64,000 bases of DNA from contig NZ_LR134331.1 in assembly GCF_900636965.1 (NCBI RefSeq), forward strand, positions 2,294,001-2,358,000, given 5' to 3'. The notes under the pieces were generated by a model. It saw only the letters and a program-made list of their open reading frames with translations, had not been told where the DNA came from and did no database searches. Source of the DNA: Lacticaseibacillus rhamnosus (GTDB lineage Bacteria > Bacillota > Bacilli > Lactobacillales > Lactobacillaceae). Position numbers and translations under genes: made by a program. Of the stretch, positions 15,714 to 64,000 are shown in pieces. The first letter of the stretch is position 1. Every line of letters starts with the position of its first letter.

Positions 15714-15832
15714 AACGCGTTCACTGACACAGGGATCTACATGTAAGGACCTTGGTCACGAGGGGCAAAGAGCGATCATCACGCCCAAGGCCGCTGACAC
15801 TCCGCTCCCTAAGCGCGCCGGTTTTCGCGGTC
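15714..15832 (+). repeat. Intergenic palindromic repeat, diverged copy
   Basis: Recognisable AACGCGTTCAC end, TGTAAGGACCTTGGTCAC arm, ATCACGCCCAAGG arm and GCGCGCCGG end. The loop region is changed from GGCCAAAGCCCGGCC. It lies between mprF (leaving leftward) and the plus-strand promoter at 15868. Confidence 0.7.
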
Positions 15833-15867
15833 CATATAAAAAAGTGAAAATTTTAGTGTGAAAGCAC

Positions 15868-15898
15868 TTGACCTGTAACGCGTTACACAAATTACACT
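15868..15898 (+). promoter_or_regulatory. Promoter-like region with a perfect 14-bp palindromic operator
   Basis: TTGACC (15868-15873) is followed immediately by TGTAACGCGTTACA (15874-15887), a perfect inverted repeat, then TACACT at 15893, with a somewhat long 19-bp spacer. The palindrome lies exactly between -35 and -10, a classic repressor position. Downstream order is palindromic repeat, SD, IS607-type element, EIIA-like gene, so this was probably the promoter of the gene at 17950. Confidence 0.45.
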
Positions 15899-15965
15899 GT
15901 GTTTGCAGTTAGGAAATGGTTTTATTGGTTGCTAGAGAGACAGGTTAACGAAATTTGGTTGCGCT

Positions 15966-16093
15966 TATCATCACGCGCTCCCCAGCGCAGCAGTCTGCGT
16001 GTAAGGACCTCGAACGCAATGGCCAAAGCCCGGCCATCACGCCTGAGGCCACTTACACTCCGATTGCTAAGCGCTCCTGCTCACGCTCACTTT
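15966..16093 (+). repeat. Intergenic palindromic repeat upstream of the first IS607-type element
   Basis: A full copy, ACGCGCTCCCCAGCGCAG to CTCCTGCTCACGCTCAC, oriented towards the plus-strand gene. It ends 5 bases before TTAGGAGG, the left flank of the insertion element. Confidence 0.85.
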
Positions 16094-16186
16094 CATTAGG
16101 AGGTGATTAACAGCAGATAAATATATATAACAATGTAGCGTAATATGGTATGTTATGAGCACGATAATTAAGTGGAAGATGCTCAT

Positions 16187-16556
16187 ATGCTCAAACCAGA
16201 CAAAATGGCTAAACGCCTCGGTGTCACTGCAGAAGTGGGATAAGTCTAGAAAGTTCAAAGCCCACATAGCACCGACTAATCGATGTTATGACACAGAAGA
16301 TCAACACCTAGCCTGTATTGGTCATGCTGATGAGTCAAAGAAACATCGACCAGTTGCGTATGTTTTGGCTATGATTGGTTTGAGCGCCTAACCCCAAAAA
16401 TTCAACCCGCAGCTTGTGGGATTGAATCATCCTAATCTATCACCTCAAGAAGAGCTAACTGAAGACTTAATTAGTATCATTCACTTATTTTCGTGTCGGT
16501 TATCCGGCTTACGTAAATACAAGAAAAAGATTGAAGACGATCCGTCTTTGAAGTAA
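16187..16556 (+). pseudogene. tnpA: IS607-family serine recombinase tnpA, internally deleted relic
   Basis: Reading across frameshifts gives MLKPDKMAKRLGVTAE, a MerR-like helix-turn-helix start, then WDKSRKFKAH..PTNR.Y.TEDQ.LA.IG. The C-terminal end QEELTEDLISIIHLFSCRLSGLRKYKKKI (broken here as QEELTEDLISII and FSCRLSGLRKYKKK) is the usual IS607 resolvase C-terminus. The catalytic serine core expected after VAY is missing, and the relic is ~370 bp instead of ~600 bp. It cannot encode an active transposase. Confidence 0.75.
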
Positions 16557-16590
16557 GTCCTTTAGTTAACTTGAAGGGAGGTGAACACTT

Positions 16591-17772
16591 TTGATTAAAA
16601 CACATAAGATCAAGCTATATCCCAATGCAACCATGCGTAAAGAACTAGAAAAACTGTTTGATTATCGACGCTTCGTTTGGAACCAAGGGCTTGAGGTCTG
16701 GAATGACATGTATGATGCTTCTTTAGTCATGATGGATAAGTCGATACGGCCTAATGAGCGAAAAGTTCGTGATGAACTGGTTATGAACAAAGCAGATTGG
16801 CAATTTGAACGATCAGCACGCGTCTTACAGCTTGCTGTGAATGATTTAAGTAAGGCGTGGGCAAACTACTTCAATCCTAAAATGCCAAATCATGAAAAGC
16901 CTAAATGGAAGTCGAAAAAGCGCTCACGTAAAACTTTTAGAACGGATCGTGCCCAGATAGTTAATGGCAAGCTCCGTTTGGACAAACCACACGGCACAAG
17001 GGTATGATATGACATCAAAATGGCTGAACAGCCACGATGGCAAGGTGAAATCAAGCAGGTTTGCATCGTTCAAGACGCAGATGGCTACTATGCATCGTTG
17101 TCTATTGAAGCCACAGTCATGGTTGAAAAACGAACCATTCGCCGGGTTACTGCCGTTGACGTCAATGTGAGCAAGTTCGACTACAAAACCCCATCAGGTT
17201 ATGCCATTCAGCCAACACTACCCGCTTCTCTACCAGCACTTTACGCTCGTATCACTCACTATCAAAAACAATTAGCACGTAAGCGAACAACAAATCCAAA
17301 GCACTTTAATTCAGCGACCTATCGCGCAACGAGAACCAAGTTGAAGCGAAACTATCAACGCGTTGAACGGATACAAATGGACTTGTTAAACAAATTTACG
17401 ACCAAGCTAGTTGTTGATCACGATCTAATTGGGATAGAAGACTTGGATAATCAGCACATGCGCATGAATCATCGTCTCGCCAAAAAGCTGCATCGTTCAA
17501 TGTTTGGCAAATTCAAAATCATGATGCAATACAAAGCGGATTGGAACGGCAGTACTTTAATTCTTGCCGATCCAATGTTTCCGAGTACGCAACGGTGTTC
17601 AAAATGTGGTTATATCAAAACCGGTGAAGAGAAACTTACTTTGCACGGTAATGCCAAATACCACACTGGACATGATGATTACATTTGCTACCAATGCGGT
17701 GCTAGGATGCGACGTGATGAGAATGCAGTTGATAACCTGATCGATTATGCAAAATCAAAAGTACCGGGGTAG
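16591..17772 (+). pseudogene. tnpB: tnpB RNA-guided nuclease gene with one nonsense codon
   Basis: 393-codon frame identical in length to copy 2, with TTG start after GGGAGGTG. Codon 139 is TGA (17005-17007) where copy 2 has TGG (Trp), so translation would stop after 138 residues. The rest of the frame is undamaged and retains Asp190 (TAVDVNV), Glu283 (IGIEDL), the CxxC...CxxC zinc ribbon (residues 336-369) and Asp376 (DENAVDN). Six other residues differ from copy 2. Confidence 0.85.
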
Positions 17773-17941
17773 GCTATACCCTTAAAGTTCAAGAGGCGGT
17801 CACTGTCATGATGAATTATTTCAGAGTGGGAATACCGCTGTTAACGGGACTAAATGAAATGCTGAATGTCAATCAAGAAAGGAAATATATAGAACCTTTA
17901 TTGGTGTCAAAGAGACATTCTTCCACGTTTTATATAGCAGG
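17773..17941 (+). ncRNA. Right end of IS607-type copy 1; predicted omega-RNA scaffold region
   Basis: In TnpB elements the guide RNA is made from the 3' end of tnpB and the element's right end, with the guide taken from flanking DNA. This 169-bp stretch is non-coding and differs from copy 2 at only one position that I can see. Existence of the RNA is inferred from family knowledge, not shown by a motif. Confidence 0.35.
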
Positions 17942-17949
17942 TCATTTTC

Positions 17950-18363
17950 ATGTTAATGCAAACACATTTTTACTCTGAACTTCCCGTTTATCACCCTACA
18001 CAAATTGGGGCTTTGAAGGCGATTGCGTTAAAGCTGACCACTGACTATGACTTTGATTATCAAGAAGTTCTCAGTTCACTGTTAGCAAGCGCCGCAGAGG
18101 AGACACAATTGCTCAGTGATCGGATTGTTTTGACTTACGGGCACGTTAGCAAGCTATCCGCGCCAATGGTGATCGGATTCGACTTTGGCTCCCAATTACC
18201 GTGGGCGGCTGGACAGCAAATTAGCGGTGCAGTCGTGCTGCTAGTGCCAGTCTCAACTGATGATCAAACCATCCATGATTGGCTTGATGCGATTGCAACA
18301 AACAGCCGCGATCATCAAGATTTAGAGGCTGTAACTCAAATGGCAACTGCTGCTATTGCTTAA
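17950..18363 (+). CDS. Orphan PTS EIIA-like protein (tentative)
   Basis: Encodes 137 aa. The layout (RIVLTYGHVSKLSAPMVIGFDFGSQLPW, cited in parts: VLTYGHVSKLSAP, then IGFDFGSQLPW, then AVVLLVPV) resembles the fructose-type EIIA domain, with His at ~69 where the phosphorylated histidine would be. Similarity is weak and no other PTS genes are near. The start codon is now 9 bp after the IS607-type element, whose right-end AGG is the only remaining ribosome-binding sequence. Promoter and leader were probably separated from it by the insertion. A terminator follows. Confidence 0.4.
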   Translation: MLMQTHFYSELPVYHPTQIGALKAIALKLTTDYDFDYQEVLSSLLASAAEETQLLSDRIVLTYGHVSKLSAPMVIGFDFGSQLPWAAGQQISGAVVLLVPVSTDDQTIHDWLDAIATNSRDHQDLEAVTQMATAAIA

Positions 18364-48782: not shown

Positions 48783-49080
48783 TTGTTATATAAACTGTGG
48801 AAGCATGCCGCTATGACACGAATTAAAGCTTTATATCGTTCCTCCTCATAAATTTGACGTATGCATGTCGTCTCTAGCAAGCATCCGCGAGACACTTACT
48901 GGTTTCATCATACTTGGCAAGGTTTCAGAGCCTATGTTGCTTATTAACAGCTCATCAATACATTTCGCCATTGAGTTTGTTTTGACCACATGAGCACCTT
49001 CCACTTAATGATTGCACTCATGTCTGCGTGGGTGCCGCGTCGCTATTATCCATAAACTGCCATTGTTTCATCACTCCCTC
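48783..49080 (-). mobile_element. Decayed, non-coding IS607-type remnant upstream of mgtA
   Basis: The plus strand 48786-48845 (TATATAAACTGTGGAAGCATG, cited as TATATAAACTGTGG then AAGCATG) aligns with the right end of copy 2 at 61234-61292. The segment near 48985-49020, read on the minus strand, matches the left end (ATTAAGTGGAAGnTGCTCAT). The middle is unrelated. Total ~300 bp, tnpB missing. As with the full copies, the right end lies just before a start codon (mgtA). Confidence 0.6.
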
Positions 49081-49217: not shown

Positions 49218-49375
49218 GAGGTCTAACCGCGCCGGCTCGCGCTTCGACCATAACGCGCTCACCAGCCCAGAAACCTGCGTGTAAGGACCTTGGTCGCAAT
49301 GGCCAAAGCCCGGCCATCACGCCCGAGGCCGCTTACACTCCGGTTTCTAACCGGGCTGGTTCACGCTCACTTTCT
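49218..49375 (+). repeat. Intergenic palindromic repeat (fragment plus full copy) upstream of the amidase
   Basis: A 30-bp fragment of the gene-proximal end (TAACCGCGCCGGCTCGCG, 49223-49240) precedes a full copy from ~49250. Stems AAACC/GGTTT are intact. Confidence 0.8.
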
Positions 49376-57940: not shown

Positions 57941-58900
57941 TCAGAAGAAAATACCAAGCCACAAGGTCAACAGTAAAGCACCGCCAACGATCATTAAAGA
58001 TTGAATCGTAAAAATAAAAGTTTTGTCTTTGCTTGGTGCTTTAGTGTACCGCCGCGTGTTTTTCTTCACCACCGGCCAAGTCAACATAACGAGTAAACTC
58101 CACCATGGCAAACTGCGGGTCAAAACACCTAGCAGTAACGCAACAAAGGTACAGAAGGGTATCAACCGGTACCAACGTAAAGCTCGGGTTCGGCCAAGGT
58201 AATATGGCAATGTAAAGCGCTGATTTTTGATATCCTGCGCCATATCAGCAATGTTATCGGCAAACATGACAGCAGCATTCAAAATGATCACCGGTAAAAC
58301 AGCGATCAACAGTTGTAACAGCCAGCCCAGATTAAGTGCAAATGTAAACGTGCGGCGGTCAAGCGTTAAGTCAAGCGGTCCCGGTAGTGTCATATTGATA
58401 AACACCGCGATCACGAAAGTCCCATAACCTTCCACAAACCCGGCCAACACCTCTCCCAGCGGCAATCGTGATAGAGGAACCGGCCCGAATGTATATAAAA
58501 TGGCCACACCGACCCCGACCGCGCCAATCACTAACAAGCTCAGGTTGGTGCGCATGACAAGAATAATGCCTAAAACCACGCTGATGAGCAAAATAAAGAT
58601 GGTAAGTGCCAACATGCCCCAAGGTGACAAATGCTCGCGGCCGATAATATTTTGCGACTGCTGATAACTGCGATCTTTGGCCTTAAAATAATCCTGAACA
58701 TTGTTGAATCCTGTCACAAATAAGGCAATAGCCAATTGAGCCGCAGCGTATATGAGACTATTGATCCAAGAAAACTGATGAAATGCCCAAGCAGCGTAAC
58801 TGATTCCCAACACCAGCGGCAACATACTGGCAGCCTTAGCCGGTAACCGAATAAATTCTAAAAATAGCGGCCACGTCAGCCGATGATAAGACTGGGTCAT
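57941..58900 (-). CDS. UbiA-family prenyltransferase (second of tandem pair)
   Basis: 319 aa, about nine membrane helices. The two Asp-rich prenyl-diphosphate motifs are FNNVQDYFKAKD (~residue 65-76) and DNIADMAQDIKNQRFTLP (~215-232), both intact. It attaches a prenyl chain to an aromatic ring, most likely a 1,4-dihydroxy-2-naphthoate-type acceptor for (demethyl)menaquinone. Its ATG overlaps the stop of the upstream paralogue by 4 bases. With apbE and pplA it fits a flavin-based EET cluster (dmkA-like). Confidence 0.8.
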   Translation of the reverse strand: MTQSYHRLTWPLFLEFIRLPAKAASMLPLVLGISYAAWAFHQFSWINSLIYAAAQLAIALFVTGFNNVQDYFKAKDRSYQQSQNIIGREHLSPWGMLALTIFILLISVVLGIILVMRTNLSLLVIGAVGVGVAILYTFGPVPLSRLPLGEVLAGFVEGYGTFVIAVFINMTLPGPLDLTLDRRTFTFALNLGWLLQLLIAVLPVIILNAAVMFADNIADMAQDIKNQRFTLPYYLGRTRALRWYRLIPFCTFVALLLGVLTRSLPWWSLLVMLTWPVVKKNTRRYTKAPSKDKTFIFTIQSLMIVGGALLLTLWLGIFF

Positions 58901-59835
58901 AGCACCACCCCCATTCCCAAACCCACAACCAGCAAACCGTTTTCCAAAACCAGGTTGATCACCGCGGTATGAAACGTTCGCTGTTTGCTGGGATCACGAA
59001 TGAACCGATGCACATTGCGAATCACCAACGGCCAGGCTAACTCCACCACCAATGTCCATATCGGTAGCGCGCCAAAAATGACGCCCAAGATCACCGCTAA
59101 GAAGCCGGCATAAGCTAACAACGCGTATACCCGTGGCGACCACCATTTGCCCAGATACATCGGCAACGTGTGGCGATGATTGCGCTGATCTTCTTCAATA
59201 TCAGACATATTATTAGCCAGCATAATATTGGCAATGGTTGCCATCGGGGTAATGCAGGCTAATCCTAATGCAACGATGGCGATAAAGTCACCACGTAAAA
59301 CAACTGTTGGCCACCCAAAATCCAAGGCAAGCAAGCGTCCCGGGGCAATATTGACATAGGTTGCAATAACCGGAATGCCTAATCCCATGACGATCCCGGA
59401 AAAAATTTCACCAAGCGGCAAACGAGAAAGCGGTAATGGCCCCCAAGTATACAAAATACCAATGGCAAAACAAGCCATCCCCATTAACAGCAACAGCCAA
59501 TCCGTCCGCACGACCAACACAACGCCCAGCAACGAAGCGACCACAAGCATTACCAGAATCAACTTGGCAACCATTCCCGGATCAAGCTGAGCCCGACCAA
59601 TGACATTCACTTCCTGCTGATAATGAGCATCTTTGGCTTTTTGATAATCCATCAAATTATTAAGCGCAGTTGTCATCATATCGAAAATCAACATTGCAGT
59701 AAAAAATAAAAGCGTATTGAGCCAATCAAAGGCGTGAAAATAAGTCACTGCAAACAAAGTGCCAATCGCAAATGGCAAAACACTTGCCAGTTTGGTGCGA
59801 ATTTCAACCAGTTCTAAAAATATCGGTAACGACAT
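58897..59835 (-). CDS. UbiA-family prenyltransferase (first of tandem pair)
   Basis: 312 aa, ATG at 59835 after GGGGAG. Paralogue of the next gene, sharing NNLMDYQKAKDAHYQQEVN (first Asp motif) and NNMSDIEEDQRNHRHTLP (second). Both motifs look functional, so the two enzymes may use different acceptors or act together. One or both probably make the quinone used by the extracellular electron transfer route. Two palindromic repeats lie directly upstream. Confidence 0.8.
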   Translation of the reverse strand: MSLPIFLELVEIRTKLASVLPFAIGTLFAVTYFHAFDWLNTLLFFTAMLIFDMMTTALNNLMDYQKAKDAHYQQEVNVIGRAQLDPGMVAKLILVMLVVASLLGVVLVVRTDWLLLLMGMACFAIGILYTWGPLPLSRLPLGEIFSGIVMGLGIPVIATYVNIAPGRLLALDFGWPTVVLRGDFIAIVALGLACITPMATIANIMLANNMSDIEEDQRNHRHTLPMYLGKWWSPRVYALLAYAGFLAVILGVIFGALPIWTLVVELAWPLVIRNVHRFIRDPSKQRTFHTAVINLVLENGLLVVGLGMGVVL

Positions 59836-59852
59836 CTACTCTCCCCTTTTGT

Positions 59853-59973
59853 AGTGAGCGCGAGCCAGCGCGGTTAGGGGCTGGAGTGTAAGTGGCCTTG
59901 GGCGTGATGACCCGCGCTTGGTCATTGCGACCAAGGTCCTTACACGCAAGCCCTGCGCTGGGGAGCGCGTTAT
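59853..59973 (-). repeat. Intergenic palindromic repeat next to the UbiA SD sequence
   Basis: Starts GTGAGCGCGAGCCAGCGCGG 8 bp upstream of the GGGGAG ribosome binding site. Arms GGGCT/AGCCC. Confidence 0.85.
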
Positions 59974-59974
59974 C

Positions 59975-60094
59975 GTGAGCGTGAACCGGCGCGCTTAGAA
60001 GTCGGAGTGTAAGTGGCCTCGAACGTGATGGCCCGCTCTTGGCCATTGCGTTCGTGGTCCTTACACGCAGACTTCTGCGCCGGTGAACGCGTTA
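59975..60094 (-). repeat. Intergenic palindromic repeat, tandem copy
   Basis: Stems AGAAGTC/GACTTCT and CTCGAAC/GTTCGtG; the latter differs from CCTTGG/CCAAGG in other copies but remains largely complementary. Confidence 0.85.
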
Positions 60095-60095
60095 T

Positions 60096-60127
60096 TGTGA
60101 GCGCGAGCCAGCGCGGTTAAAAGTCGG
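60096..60127 (-). repeat. Intergenic palindromic repeat, 32-bp fragment
   Basis: Only the gene-proximal end (GTGAGCGCGAGCCAGCGCGG) is present, cut off at AAGTCGG. Confidence 0.7.
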
Positions 60128-60157
60128 TCAAGCCTTTATTGTGAACCCTTAACCAAC

Positions 60158-61222
60158 TTACTTTAACTTCGCCAGCGTATACCCCGAGTCCTTCAACAAC
60201 TTAAACTTATCTTTCAACCCCGAGCTCACGTAAACTTTTTTATCTTTGGTAACAAAAATAGCATCAGCATAATTCAACTTTTCAATATAGGCCATCCCAT
60301 CAAATAGCCCCTTATCAAAAGTCGCTGTTGACAAAGCATCCCCATCCACACTCTTTTTGGTAATAATCGAAACACCCATTAATTCATTATCAAATGGATA
60401 GCCGGTTTTGGGATTCATCAGGTGCATATAAACCTTACCATCAACTTTAAGATAGCGTTCATAGATACCCGAGGTCACGATGGTTTTATTGCTGGCAGGT
60501 AAGGTCCCGATGGCCGTCCCACGAGGCTTCTTAGGATCCTGAATACCGACACTCCAGTCTTTTTTAGTGCTTTTAGGACTTTTGCCCATGACAAAAATAT
60601 TGCCGCCTAAGTCAATAATAGCAGTCGTTACATGCTGTTTCTTCAACGTTTTCACGACTTCATCGGTAATAAAGCCTTTAGCAATACCACCTAGATCAAT
60701 TGCCATGCCCTTTTTCTTAAGATATACCGTCTGTTGTTTCTTATTGAGAGCAACATCTTGATAGTGAACCAATGGCAGCTTGGCATCAATTTCACTTTGC
60801 GCCGGTTTGCGCGCATCGGCAAAACCAATATGCCACAAACTCGTAATCGGCCCAATTGCCAAGTCAAACGAACCGTTCGAATTTTCACTATAATGCTTGG
60901 CAGCTTCAATCACCCGATAAACACTCGGAGTGACATGTACGGGTTTCACCCCCGCATTCTTATTGACAGCATCGACTTCGGAGCCCTTCTGGTTAACCGT
61001 CAGTTCATCGGCCAACTGCTGAACACGGGCAAAAGCAGCATCTAGTGCTCCCTGCTTCCCCTTGTCATAAATCTTAATCATAACAACCGTCCCCATCAGA
61101 AACTGAGTATCCGAATAAGGATCGCCCGAAACCAATTCCCGTTTAGCTGTCGACTGACTCGAACAGCCCGTCGCCACCAGTGCCAAAAGCATCAGGATAA
61201 CGACAATCAATCGCTTTTTCAT
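60158..61222 (-). CDS. apbE: FMN transferase ApbE (flavinylating lipoprotein)
   Basis: 354 aa from ATG 61222. The lipobox ALVATGC (Cys ~20) indicates an outer-face lipoprotein. ApbE motifs are FLMGTVVMIKI, FDLAIGPITSLWHIG, AIDLGGIAKGFITDEV and NPKTGYPFDNE. It transfers FMN from FAD onto Ser/Thr in target motifs such as SGATHSS in the nearby PplA-like protein. The 3' tip of an IS607-type element lies 6 bp upstream, so the original SD is now split from the ATG and only AGG remains. Confidence 0.92.
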   Translation of the reverse strand: MKKRLIVVILMLLALVATGCSSQSTAKRELVSGDPYSDTQFLMGTVVMIKIYDKGKQGALDAAFARVQQLADELTVNQKGSEVDAVNKNAGVKPVHVTPSVYRVIEAAKHYSENSNGSFDLAIGPITSLWHIGFADARKPAQSEIDAKLPLVHYQDVALNKKQQTVYLKKKGMAIDLGGIAKGFITDEVVKTLKKQHVTTAIIDLGGNIFVMGKSPKSTKKDWSVGIQDPKKPRGTAIGTLPASNKTIVTSGIYERYLKVDGKVYMHLMNPKTGYPFDNELMGVSIITKKSVDGDALSTATFDKGLFDGMAYIEKLNYADAIFVTKDKKVYVSSGLKDKFKLLKDSGYTLAKLK

Positions 61223-61228
61223 GTACAA

Positions 61229-61397
61229 CCTGCTATATAAAATGTGGAAGAATGTCTCTTTGACACCAATAAAGGTTCTATATATTTCCTTTCTTGATTG
61301 ACATTCAGCATTTCATTTAGTCCCGTTAACAGCGGTATTCCCACTCTGAAATAATTCATCATGACAGTGACCGCCTCTTGAACTTTAAGGGTATAGC
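61229..61397 (-). ncRNA. Right end of IS607-type copy 2; predicted omega-RNA scaffold region
   Basis: 169 bp from the tnpB stop to the element edge, nearly identical to copy 1. By family knowledge it should form the omega-RNA scaffold with the guide taken from the following apbE start region. Not proven by sequence. Confidence 0.35.
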
Positions 61398-62579
61398 CTA
61401 CCCCGGTACTTTTGATTTTGCATAATCGATCAGGTTATCAACTGCATTCTCATCACGTCGCATCCTAGCACCGCATTGGTAGCAAATGTAATCATCATGT
61501 CCAGTGTGGTATTTGGCATTACCGTGCAAAGTAAGTTTCTCTTCACCGGTTTTGATATAACCACATTTTGAACACCGTTGCGTACTCGGAAACATTGGAT
61601 CGGCAAGAATTAAAGTACTGCCGTTCCAATCCGCTTTGTATTGCATCATGATTTTGAATTTGCCAAACATTGAACGATGCAGCTTTTTGGCGAGACGATG
61701 ATTCATGCGCATGTGCTGATTATCCAAGTCTTCTATCCCAATTAGATCGTGATCAACAACTAGCTTGGTCGTAAATTTGTTTAACAAGTCCATTTGTATC
61801 CGTTCAACGCGTTGATAGTTTCGCTTCAACTTGGTTCTCGTTGCGCGATAGGTCGCTGAATTAAAGTGCTTTGGATTTGTTGCTCGCTTACGTGCTAATT
61901 GTTTTTGATAGTGAGTGATACGAGCGTAAAGTGCTGGTAGAGAAGCGGGTAGTGTTGGCTGAATGGCATAACCTGATGGGGTTTTGTAGTCGAACTTGCC
62001 CACATTGACGTCAACGGCAGTAACCCGGCGAATGGTTCGTTTTTCAACCATGACTGTGGCTTCAATAGACAACGATGCATAGTAGCCATCTGCGTCTTGA
62101 ACGATGCAAACCTGCTTGATTTCACCTTGCCATCGTGGCTGTTCAGCCATTTTGATGTCATACCATACCCTTGTGCCATGTGGTTTGTCCAAACGGAGCT
62201 TGCCATTAACTATCTGGGCACGATCCGTTCTAAAAGTTTTACGTGAGCGCTTTTTCGACTTCCACTTAGGCTTGTCATGGTTGGGCATTTTAGGATTCAA
62301 ATAGTTTGCCCACGCCTTACTTAAATCATTCACGGCAAGCTGTAAAACGCGCGCCGATCGTTCAAACTGCCAATCTGCTTTGTTCGCAACCAGTTCATCA
62401 CGAACTTTTCGCTCATTAGGCCGTATCGACTTATCCATCATGACTAAAGAGGCGTCATACATGTCATTCCAGATTTCCAGCCCTTGGTTCCAAACGAAAC
62501 GGCGATAATCAAACAATTTTTCTAATTCTTTACGCATCGTTGCATTGGGATAAAGTTTGATCTTATGCGTTTTAATCAA
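61398..62579 (-). CDS. tnpB: TnpB RNA-guided endonuclease
   Basis: 393 aa, TTG start at 62579 after GGGAGGTG. An N-terminal OrfB helix-turn-helix region begins IKTHKIKLYPN. The RuvC-like nuclease retains Asp190 (TAVDVNV), Glu283 (IGIEDL) and Asp376 (DENAVDN), with a zinc ribbon CSKCG...CYQCG at 336-369. All catalytic residues are present, so it may be active with its omega-RNA. Codon 139 is Trp, the position of the nonsense codon in copy 1. Confidence 0.9.
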   Translation of the reverse strand: MIKTHKIKLYPNATMRKELEKLFDYRRFVWNQGLEIWNDMYDASLVMMDKSIRPNERKVRDELVANKADWQFERSARVLQLAVNDLSKAWANYLNPKMPNHDKPKWKSKKRSRKTFRTDRAQIVNGKLRLDKPHGTRVWYDIKMAEQPRWQGEIKQVCIVQDADGYYASLSIEATVMVEKRTIRRVTAVDVNVGKFDYKTPSGYAIQPTLPASLPALYARITHYQKQLARKRATNPKHFNSATYRATRTKLKRNYQRVERIQMDLLNKFTTKLVVDHDLIGIEDLDNQHMRMNHRLAKKLHRSMFGKFKIMMQYKADWNGSTLILADPMFPSTQRCSKCGYIKTGEEKLTLHGNAKYHTGHDDYICYQCGARMRRDENAVDNLIDYAKSKVPG

Positions 62580-62613
62580 AAGTGTTCACCTCCCTTCAAG
62601 TTAACTAAAGGAC

Positions 62614-62983
62614 TTACTTCAAAAATGGATCGTCTTCAAGCTTTCCTTGTATTGACGTAAGCCGGATAACCGACGCGAAAATACGTGAATCATACTAATT
62701 AAGTCTTCAGTTAGCTCTCCCTGAGGTGATAGACCAGGATGATTCAACCCCACAAGCTGTGTGGTTGAATCTTTGGGGTTTGGCGCTCAAACCAATCATA
62801 GCCAAAACGCACGCAACTCGTCGATGTTTCTTTAATTCATCAGCATGACCGATATAAGCCAAGTATTGATGCTCGGTATAATAACATCAATTAGGTGGTG
62901 TTCTGCGAGCTTTGAGCTTTCCAGACTTATCCCACTGTTGCAGTTGCACCGAGACATTTAGCCATTTCGTTTGGTCTGAGCAT
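62614..62983 (-). pseudogene. tnpA: IS607-family serine recombinase tnpA, internally deleted relic
   Basis: Same 370-bp remnant as in copy 1, about 10% different in sequence and with its own stop codons (MLRPNEMAKCLGATA..., TPPN*CYYTEHQYLAYIGHA). The catalytic core is missing in the same place. Confidence 0.75.
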
Positions 62984-63078
62984 ATGAGCATCTTCCACTT
63001 AATTATCGTGCTCATAACATACCATGTTACGCTACATTGTTACATATATTTGTCTGCTGTTAATCACCTCCAAAAAGT

Positions 63079-63199
63079 GTGAGCGCGAGCCGGCGCGCTT
63101 AGAAACCGGAGCATAAGTGGCCTTGGACGTGATGACCGGGCTTTGGTCATTGCGTCCAAGGTCCTTATGTGCAGGTTTCTGCGCCGGGGAGCGCGTTAT
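63079..63199 (-). repeat. Intergenic palindromic repeat upstream of IS607-type copy 2
   Basis: Stems AGAAACC/GGTTTCT and CCTTGGAC/GTCCAAGG. It ends 7 bp from GGAGG, the SD left half at the insertion site. Confidence 0.85.
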
Positions 63200-63200
63200 A

Positions 63201-63325
63201 GTGAGCTGAGCGTGAGCCAGCGCGCTTAGAGATCGGAGTGTAAGTGGCCTTGGACGTGATGGCCGGGCTTTGGCCATTGCGTCCAAGGCCCTTACACGCA
63301 GATCTCTGCGCTGGCGAACGCTTTA
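63201..63325 (-). repeat. Intergenic palindromic repeat, tandem copy
   Basis: Stems AGAGATC/GATCTCT and CCTTGGAC/GTCCAAGG; compensatory differences from its neighbour in the first stem. Confidence 0.85.
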
Positions 63326-63411
63326 TGCACCGGTGAGCATCTTGAACCGAAAGCAAGCCGACACACTAGCCAAGTGCCACATCGTTTACTGACTAAAACG
63401 GTTACAGCACC

Positions 63412-63417
63412 ATTATA
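63412..63417 (-). promoter_or_regulatory. Possible -10 of the original apbE promoter
   Basis: Minus-strand TATAAT downstream of the pplA terminator and upstream of the two repeats. No clear -35. Confidence 0.4.
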
Positions 63418-63436
63418 CCGGGCATTATGAGCATAA

Positions 63437-63483
63437 GAAAAGAACTCGCTCAGAAAAATTATTCCAAACAAGTTCTTGCTTAG
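63437..63483 (-). terminator. Terminator of the pplA-like gene
   Basis: Minus strand AAGAACTTG...CGAGTTCTTTTCTT just after the gene, so apbE is not simply co-transcribed with it. Confidence 0.7.
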
Positions 63484-63531
63484 TTAACCCGCGCTAATAA
63501 CGCACATTAACTTCTTTTCAAGATCACGCCA

Positions 63532-64000
63532 TTACTTGTAAACAATATTGTCGACTTCGATCTTGTTGGTATTACCATTTTGAGCAGCGTTAACTAACTG
63601 ATCAGCATACAAGATGAAGGTATCGGAACTGTGGGTTGCACCGGAAACCACATCAACCTTGGCTGGTGACTGCTTAGCAACCAGTGACTTGTTCAGTTCT
63701 GGGATGTATTCCTTCGGGCCAACCTTGTTCACTTTCTTCATGTTAGCTTCGTATTTCGTATCCTGAGTCTTGGACTTACCGTCTTTATTGACGTTGTCGT
63801 AGTTGCTTTCGGTAATCTTACCGTCTTTAACCGTGATGGAGAAGGTTACCCGATAGCCGTTGAAGTAGTTCTTTTCTTCAAGCGTGTAAGTACCATCTTT
63901 CATCTTGCCAGTGTTATTGACTTCAATTGGCTTGGTGTCCCCAGCCTGAGCCGCCTGAACTAATTGTTGGGCGTAATTCTTAAAGGTCATACTGGAATCG
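63532..64000 (-). CDS. pplA: Extracellular FMN-binding protein, PplA-like (C-terminal part)
   Basis: At least 156 aa, open to the right edge; the in-frame Met near the edge is not the start. It holds one complete FMN-binding domain (GTYTLEEKNYFNGYRVTFSI to the end) with the flavinylation motif SGATHSS. The segment before it (SSMTFKNYAQQLVQAAQAGD) repeats the domain's own C-terminal pattern (SSDTFILYADQLVNAAQNGN), so at least two FMN-binding domains exist, as in Listeria PplA. It would carry covalent FMN on the cell surface and pass electrons outward. ApbE, the enzyme that attaches FMN, is encoded downstream. Confidence 0.85.
   Translation of the reverse strand, partial: DSSMTFKNYAQQLVQAAQAGDTKPIEVNNTGKMKDGTYTLEEKNYFNGYRVTFSITVKDGKITESNYDNVNKDGKSKTQDTKYEANMKKVNKVGPKEYIPELNKSLVAKQSPAKVDVVSGATHSSDTFILYADQLVNAAQNGNTNKIEVDNIVYK

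Follow-up and report, generated by a model that had tools for sequence, protein, structure and literature searches.

IS607-type transposable elements of Lacticaseibacillus were found, in most of the copies surveyed, to lie a few nucleotides upstream of a start codon, with the core of a Shine-Dalgarno (SD) sequence at their opposite end. The copy at the centre of this analysis is located within a 64,000-nucleotide stretch of the Lacticaseibacillus rhamnosus genome (GCF_900636965.1, contig NZ_LR134331.1, positions 2,294,001 to 2,358,000; hereafter, the window), where it separates apbE, the gene for FAD:protein FMN transferase, from its SD. We hold it to be quite probable that this lineage uses the SD core as its insertion target, that its TnpB nuclease takes the same bases as its target-adjacent motif (TAM), and that expression of the gene behind an element is lowered, not lost.

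The element is 1838 bp in length (61230..63067, minus strand, as are the features that follow unless stated otherwise); taking the minus strand as the sense of tnpB, its left end is at 63067 and its right end at 61230, and both ends are shared by a copy of approximately 95% identity elsewhere in the host genome. An earlier reading made from the letters of the DNA (the sequence-only reading) had correctly recognized an IS607-type element in the SD of apbE. The left flank, ...CTTTTTGGAG, ends in the GGAG of that SD (63068..63071), and the right flank is GTTGTAC followed by the ATG of apbE. The right end itself, ...TTTTATATAGCAG (61230..61245), terminates in AGCAG, a single-base departure from the AGGAG core, and the apbE start at 61222, positioned by alignment with sister genomes, is found 7 nt past it. 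The coding sequence (60158..61222; Pfam ApbE, E 1.5e-83) is untouched by the insertion, as that reading had also held. Its further claim that the rejoined flanks yield an SD before apbE was borne out: the flanks are as described, and in three sister genomes (G005, G006, and G017) apbE follows an intact SD, with no element immediately ahead of it, e.g., CACTTTTGGAGGAATATATAGATG. The base preceding GGAG at this site is T, not A (TGGAG).

The point of strand exchange was revealed by pyrG, the empty site of which in close relatives (AAAAAAGGAG|ACTGGCTATG) could be set against the occupied site in genome G028 (AAAAAGGAG-G... and ...GCAG-ATTGGCTATG). The comparison puts the exchange point within GGAG, at its AG, and hence the final G of the left-end GGAGG may be part of the element; at apbE, either assignment of that G gives an identical rejoined string. 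Nothing is repeated at pyrG beyond the shared AG, so that target-site duplication is absent, as expected of an IS607 element. The GG exchange dinucleotide was defined on IS607 itself, and since what GCAG|N at the right end and GGAG in the left flank share here is AG, we read the AG exchange as a variant; GG exchange does fit a sister group of elements with the right end GTAACGG (group 2, below).

The sequence-only reading had proposed real target choice for SD sequences, and a survey of the distance between insertion and start codon gave the reverse of an absence of enrichment 5-12 bp before starts. Scanning for whole-element DNA similarity detected the element in 13 of 30 genomes of the genus, while a right-end pattern was found in 12 of 397 genomes of the family, all within one of 40 genera, and in 43 stretches of a genome contig collection (pantheris, zhaodongensis, baoqingensis, zeae, chiayiensis, jixianensis, hulanensis, suilingensis, manihotivorans, daqingensis, and one metagenome-assembled genome). 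Copies with identical 22 nt past the right end were counted once, giving 51 distinct copies, or 49 after removal of one that is decayed (L005) and one with 26 nt of flank (L105). Under a strict criterion, namely ATG or GTG at 3-13 nt past the right end that opens a reading frame of at least 60 codons or one open to the end of the available DNA, 39 of the 49 stand before a start (37 of 49 with ATG alone), each oriented as the gene that follows; a looser limit on the open reading frame (ORF) gave 43 of 51 with a start within 10 nt. The distances are mostly 5-10 nt, 7 nt being the commonest. Ten copies failed the strict criterion (L003, L012, L016, L027, L031, L035, L054, L065, L068, and L108), three of them with a shorter ORF (53, 49-51, and 59 codons); that of L054 encodes ribosomal protein L33 and lies at the same site as L078.

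Defining left ends by GGAG alone would have been circular, and they were therefore recognized from the conserved part of the element that comes next, which also served to place six unsettled copies. A usable left end was lacking in 12 of the 51 copies, 11 because the sequence ends short and one through decay. Among the remaining 39, the left flank is GGAG in 38 and is preceded by A in 28. The AGCAG right end, one base off AGGAG, is present in the 29 distinct copies found by whole-element similarity and in all 50 undecayed copies of the pattern set, where it holds by construction of the pattern.

Part of this start signal, though not all, is due to the motif itself. Using the same start criterion on 400 kb of the host, 254 of 1199 GGAG sites (21%), 138 of 345 AGGAG sites (40%), and 73 of 110 AGGAGG sites (66%) precede a start. 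When expectation was matched by hexamer for a set of 37 copies (L105, L005, L018, and copies without a left end being dropped), 30 were observed before a start against 14.7 expected, and none of 200,000 simulations reached 30. The strongest competing explanation dispenses with choice of the SD: AG or GGAG would suffice, insertion would occur anywhere, and coding insertions would be lost while those in SD sequences are tolerated and survive. A simple gene caller applied to 464 kb of the host (399 genes) assigned 849 of 1389 GGAG sites to coding sequence (61%), 218 to starts (16%), and 322 elsewhere (23%), and exclusion of the coding sites raises the expectation from 12.9 to 20.9 of 37. Selection thus surely accounts for part of the pattern. 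Nonetheless, with a looser start criterion for the copies, 32 of the 37 were seen at starts, still above 20.9 (P ~1.5e-5), albeit by a crude caller that may miss small genes, and selection as the sole cause is possible but somewhat doubtful. The motif and the loss of coding insertions explain much of the pattern, and the enrichment that remains is only suggestive given the crudeness of the caller.

The host genome (Lacticaseibacillus-type, one contig of 2,988,387 bases) holds further copies. The second in the window (16103..17940, plus strand) has the left flank ...CATTAGGAG, a tnpB with a premature stop, and the ATG of the next gene at 17950; AGGAGG precedes the same gene in three of four relatives, the fourth having AAAGAGAGGGG. 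The third is decayed and internally deleted (~291 bp; 48783..49073) and lies 3 nt upstream of the ATG (48779) of a gene for a P-type cation ATPase; its right end is ACAA, GCAG being present in 50 of the 51 copies of the inclusive pattern set. A full copy, L006, was located at 526.5-528.6 kb of the host genome with tnpA and tnpB intact. Its TnpA (L006:1116-1727) has the N-terminal MerR-type and serine recombinase (resolvase) domains that define IS607 and reaches 215.5 bits with NF033518 (transpos_IS607; cut-off 110). L006 (G000:C1, ~528.6 kb) is the only copy in the host with both genes intact, and it has no start codon immediately after it; an antitoxin-like gene begins some 65 nt past its right end.

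Relative to this intact copy, tnpA of the apbE element is a remnant of the IS607 serine transposase gene (62614..62983) with deletions of 11 and 217 bp, and the second window copy has the identical deletions. The two are consequently sister copies descended from one defective ancestor; the sequence-only reading, which took them as two independent sites, was right that the sites are separate but not that the elements are independent. At least one of the two probably moved in trans. With both ends available, 4 of 39 genus copies are of full-copy size (~2065 bp) and 35 are shorter, most of which, to judge by size, would have no full tnpA. Three short derivatives, L032 (318 bp), L046 (449 bp), and L070 (~450 bp), have both ends and the guide-RNA scaffold with little or no tnpA or tnpB; they likewise lie before start codons and probably moved in trans.

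Relatives of the IS607 TnpA (E 1e-20 or better) were identified in 46 of 398 genomes of the phylum. From the listed matches 40 regions were taken and those with readable right ends used, and right-end patterns for two sister groups were derived from a small number of copies, only part of which have a start codon. Group 1 (right end ...TAGTRGCAG) turned up in 23 of 189 genomes of one order, 6 of the 38 places listed by this search being outside the examined set; 20 of its 32 distinct copies precede an ATG or GTG start, and 23 of 32 if TTG is included. With group 2 (right end ...GTAACGG), found in 6 of 378 genomes, the corresponding values are 10 and 12 of 18. In the flanking DNA of the two groups, respectively, starts follow 11 and 9% of random positions and 16 and 10% of GGAG sites. 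Enrichment at starts thus upholds the claim of target choice both in the genus and in other Bacillota. The Lacticaseibacillus and group 1 elements are 53-60% identical in TnpA and only ~22-28% in TnpB. The RAGATH-18 RNA (RF03064) is over its cut-off in four of the five sister loci scanned (the fifth, L234, is below), whereas the window element and L006 match RF03014 and not RF03064. Since TnpB and the guide RNA differ while TnpA and target are kept, the target follows TnpA, which suggests that TnpA would be the chooser of the target and TnpB fitted to it. Three other searches returned little: no relative of the window TnpB protein in the contig collection; no match to a 192-bp right end in plasmid and phage collections; and, under stricter filters, RF03014 in only the host genome (three places) among the 398 phylum genomes, making this family unusable for testing breadth.

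Several observations count against targeting of the SD core. Seven of the 49 copies (L003, L012, L027, L031, L035, L065, and L108) have no start of even a 49-codon ORF 1-13 nt on; L027 seems to have inserted close to the 5' end of a coding sequence, and the left flank of L018 is AGAG. The residual enrichment depends on a home-made gene caller and on start criteria that differ somewhat between copies and background. The 16S tail was sought in the surveyed loci with no match, and thus the pairing calculations below use an assumed anti-SD string. Finally, the residues reported to read AGGAG in the TnpB of ISFba1, an element of the RAGATH-18 group, are not conserved in the window TnpB when aligned by eye to PDB 8iaz, presumably ISFba1 TnpB, and the argument for TAM recognition by the window protein therefore comes from the flanks alone.

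The window tnpB (61398..62579; 393 aa, TTG start) is open and lies downstream of the tnpA remnant, as in IS607 elements. Its product belongs to the TnpB nuclease family, with 208 bits against NCBIfam guided_TnpB (NF040570; cut-off 100); the IS200_TnpB model (192.5) exceeds the IS607_TnpB model (102), each below its own cut-off. The RuvC residues D190, E283, and D376, assigned by motif, are present. Between tnpB and the right end, a match to the Rfam 'Transposase-1' RNA RF03014 (61326..61380; 48.6 bits, cut-off 42.8) is taken to represent a portion of the guide-RNA scaffold for TnpB. On the model of the TnpB systems described in the accessible text of PMC11061315, the predicted guide is the first 20 nt past the right end (61210..61229) and includes the apbE start codon, while the GGAG at 63068..63071 is the predicted TAM.

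From these parts, the use of the SD core by the lineage may be pictured as follows. The target would be GGAG, or GAGG in a sister group, and the serine transposase TnpA would exchange strands at the AG of GGAG, an exchange that would always leave the element co-oriented with the gene, within its mRNA leader, and 5-10 nt upstream of its start codon. For TnpB and the right-end RNA, that GGAG would be the TAM and the start region of the gene the guide; by cutting an empty allele restored by excision, TnpB would favour retention of the element. After insertion, the full length of the element separates the SD of the gene from its start codon, which stands behind AGCAG. The single base distinguishing AGCAG from AGGAG may both spare the occupied site from TnpB and cost the gene its SD; given that single TAM changes abolished cleavage by ISFba1 TnpB (PMC11061315, in the text accessible), this base would be expected to protect the occupied site. 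Translation of the gene would then proceed by weak, SD-poor initiation in an A+T-rich leader with little structure.

The effect on the downstream gene was estimated by calculation, using as anti-SD the string that we take to be the 16S tail. For 33 leaders, predicted pairing is -10.6 kcal/mol (standard deviation 3.1) when rejoined and -3.8 kcal/mol (standard deviation 2.3) when occupied, in line with the earlier suggestion of a weak SD at the right end; predicted leader structure is also weaker when occupied (-3.7 vs. -5.7 kcal/mol, n = 33). Genes behind the element with NCBIfam matches over cut-off comprise pyrG, ileS, murI, rimM, lspA, uppP, rpmG, argS, ndk, rimO, and a menaquinone decarboxylase gene. 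The match to dnaX falls only within a 187-aa ORF that may be broken, those to nifS-, galM-, mutS-, and polIV-like proteins are below cut-off, some being cut by the end of the locus, and 2 of 18 downstream proteins have no family. At L021:2879-4333, one 485-aa ORF behind the copy encodes both glutamate racemase and an XTP/dITP diphosphatase. Genes such as pyrG and ileS are of the essential type, and the single matches to pyrG in G028 and to ileS in G005 are in each case the occupied one; hence, expression must continue at some level, and the statement that insertion would cut translation is not supported as worded. Expression of an occupied gene is probably lowered, not lost.

Other routes to expression were considered. 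The right end could carry a promoter from which the gene is made on a leaderless or short mRNA, and TTTTATATAG within it does resemble a -10 box; this is improbable, as no -35-like hexamer was seen by eye at 16-18 bp, and the stretch doubles as RNA scaffold and transposase end, its conservation therefore not being diagnostic of a promoter. It is similarly improbable that the element acts as a knock-down or knock-out switch (phase variation), with scarless excision restoring the SD: a crossover at AG regenerates the SD exactly and serine transposases of the IS607 family excise via a circle (PMC4058570, accessible text), but tnpA of the window copy is defective and essential-type genes are among those occupied. 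Least probable is translational coupling, in which a small ORF would cross the right end and lead into the start of the gene, because the ORF seen in the window copy and L006 (MMNYFRVG..., spanning the right end and ending near the next gene start) is not kept, L032 having an early stop and other subfamilies one-base shifts in the same stretch; it was dropped.

Beyond the genus, we lean, with reserve, towards the view that an IS607/TnpB lineage across the Bacillota has taken the SD as its genomic address, with transposase target and nuclease TAM both corresponding to the ribosome-binding site (RBS). If so, thousands of dispersed, conserved, co-oriented sites would be open to it at no cost in coding damage, the element would ride in the leaders of host transcripts, every guide would be a gene-start guide, and the trade-off would be obligatory, one and the same base shielding the occupied site from TnpB and depriving the gene of its SD. 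Safe-haven targeting by mobile elements is known for tRNA genes and attachment sites; a lineage targeting the translation initiation signal of ordinary genes would represent a new kind of address. The occupied genes, those of essential type included, would constitute many natural experiments on how far translation manages without an SD, and gene-start guides would be a feature worth seeking in TnpB-derived regulators.

Regarding the surroundings of the element (window 57941-63990, minus strand), apbE is flanked by a gene for an FMN-binding-domain protein and two UbiA prenyltransferase genes, a neighbourhood that we take to resemble a locus for flavin-based extracellular electron transfer; were it one, the element would separate the gene of the flavinylated protein from that of its flavin transferase. 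Palindromic repeat units of ~110 bp, GTGAGCG...GGAGTGTAAGTGGCC...CTTACACGCAG...GCGCGTTA, flank several genes (59860-60140, 63080-63330, 15740-16100, and 49230-49300). They directly adjoin all three window copies, and their GGAGTGTAAG contributes to the CGGAGT background.

Literature on IS607, TnpB, or RAGATH-18 in combination with SD, RBS, start codon, or target specificity yielded no paper on SD targeting, most subscription papers being outside the scope of the search; none was found in the accessible portions of PMC3231932, PMC3120642, PMC12781874, PMC10711439, PMC4227781, and PMC13418256. Among known systems, ISDra2 TnpB (PDB 8bf8, 8h1j) is, among natural proteins of solved structure, the best sequence match to the window TnpB (E 1e-28), but it belongs to IS200/IS605 elements with a T-rich TAM (PMC11061315, in part), whereas the window TnpB is in an IS607-type element. 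IStrons, which join a group I intron to an insertion sequence (PMC4227781, accessible text), resemble the present element as TnpB/TnpA mobile elements that a host gene must tolerate, and those of group B use GG-containing sites. Rfam detected no group I intron in window positions 60000-64000, where RF03014 was the sole family to reach threshold, and, unlike with IStrons, tolerance of the present element comes from its position before the start codon. The IS607 of Helicobacter pylori (PMC6188088 and PMC4058570, each in part) shares the MerR-type DNA-binding and serine recombinase domains, the lack of target duplication, and the exchange of a dinucleotide; it exchanges GG, with a preference for (G)GG and otherwise no reported sequence relation among targets (PMC6188088), and the Lacticaseibacillus element AG within GGAG.

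The RAGATH-18 elements, ISFba1 and its kin, come closest in having an IS607 TnpA, TnpB, and a right-end guide RNA, and differ from the Lacticaseibacillus elements in RNA family (RF03064, not RF03014) and in TnpB, which is ~22-28% identical between the latter and the sister elements. According to the accessible text of PMC11061315, the TAMs of 23 IS607 TnpBs from 22 strains are AGGAG in 18 of the 22 strains and GAGGG in 4; both are SD cores, although the main text, where accessible, makes no mention of start codon, ribosome, Shine-Dalgarno, or RBS. By flank sequence, the Lacticaseibacillus copies compare with these TAMs in the GGAG and preceding A counted above, apbE being the TGGAG case. Targeting of the SD would explain the published TAMs, and the RAGATH-18 relatives found in this analysis, as with the Lacticaseibacillus copies, also sit before start codons.

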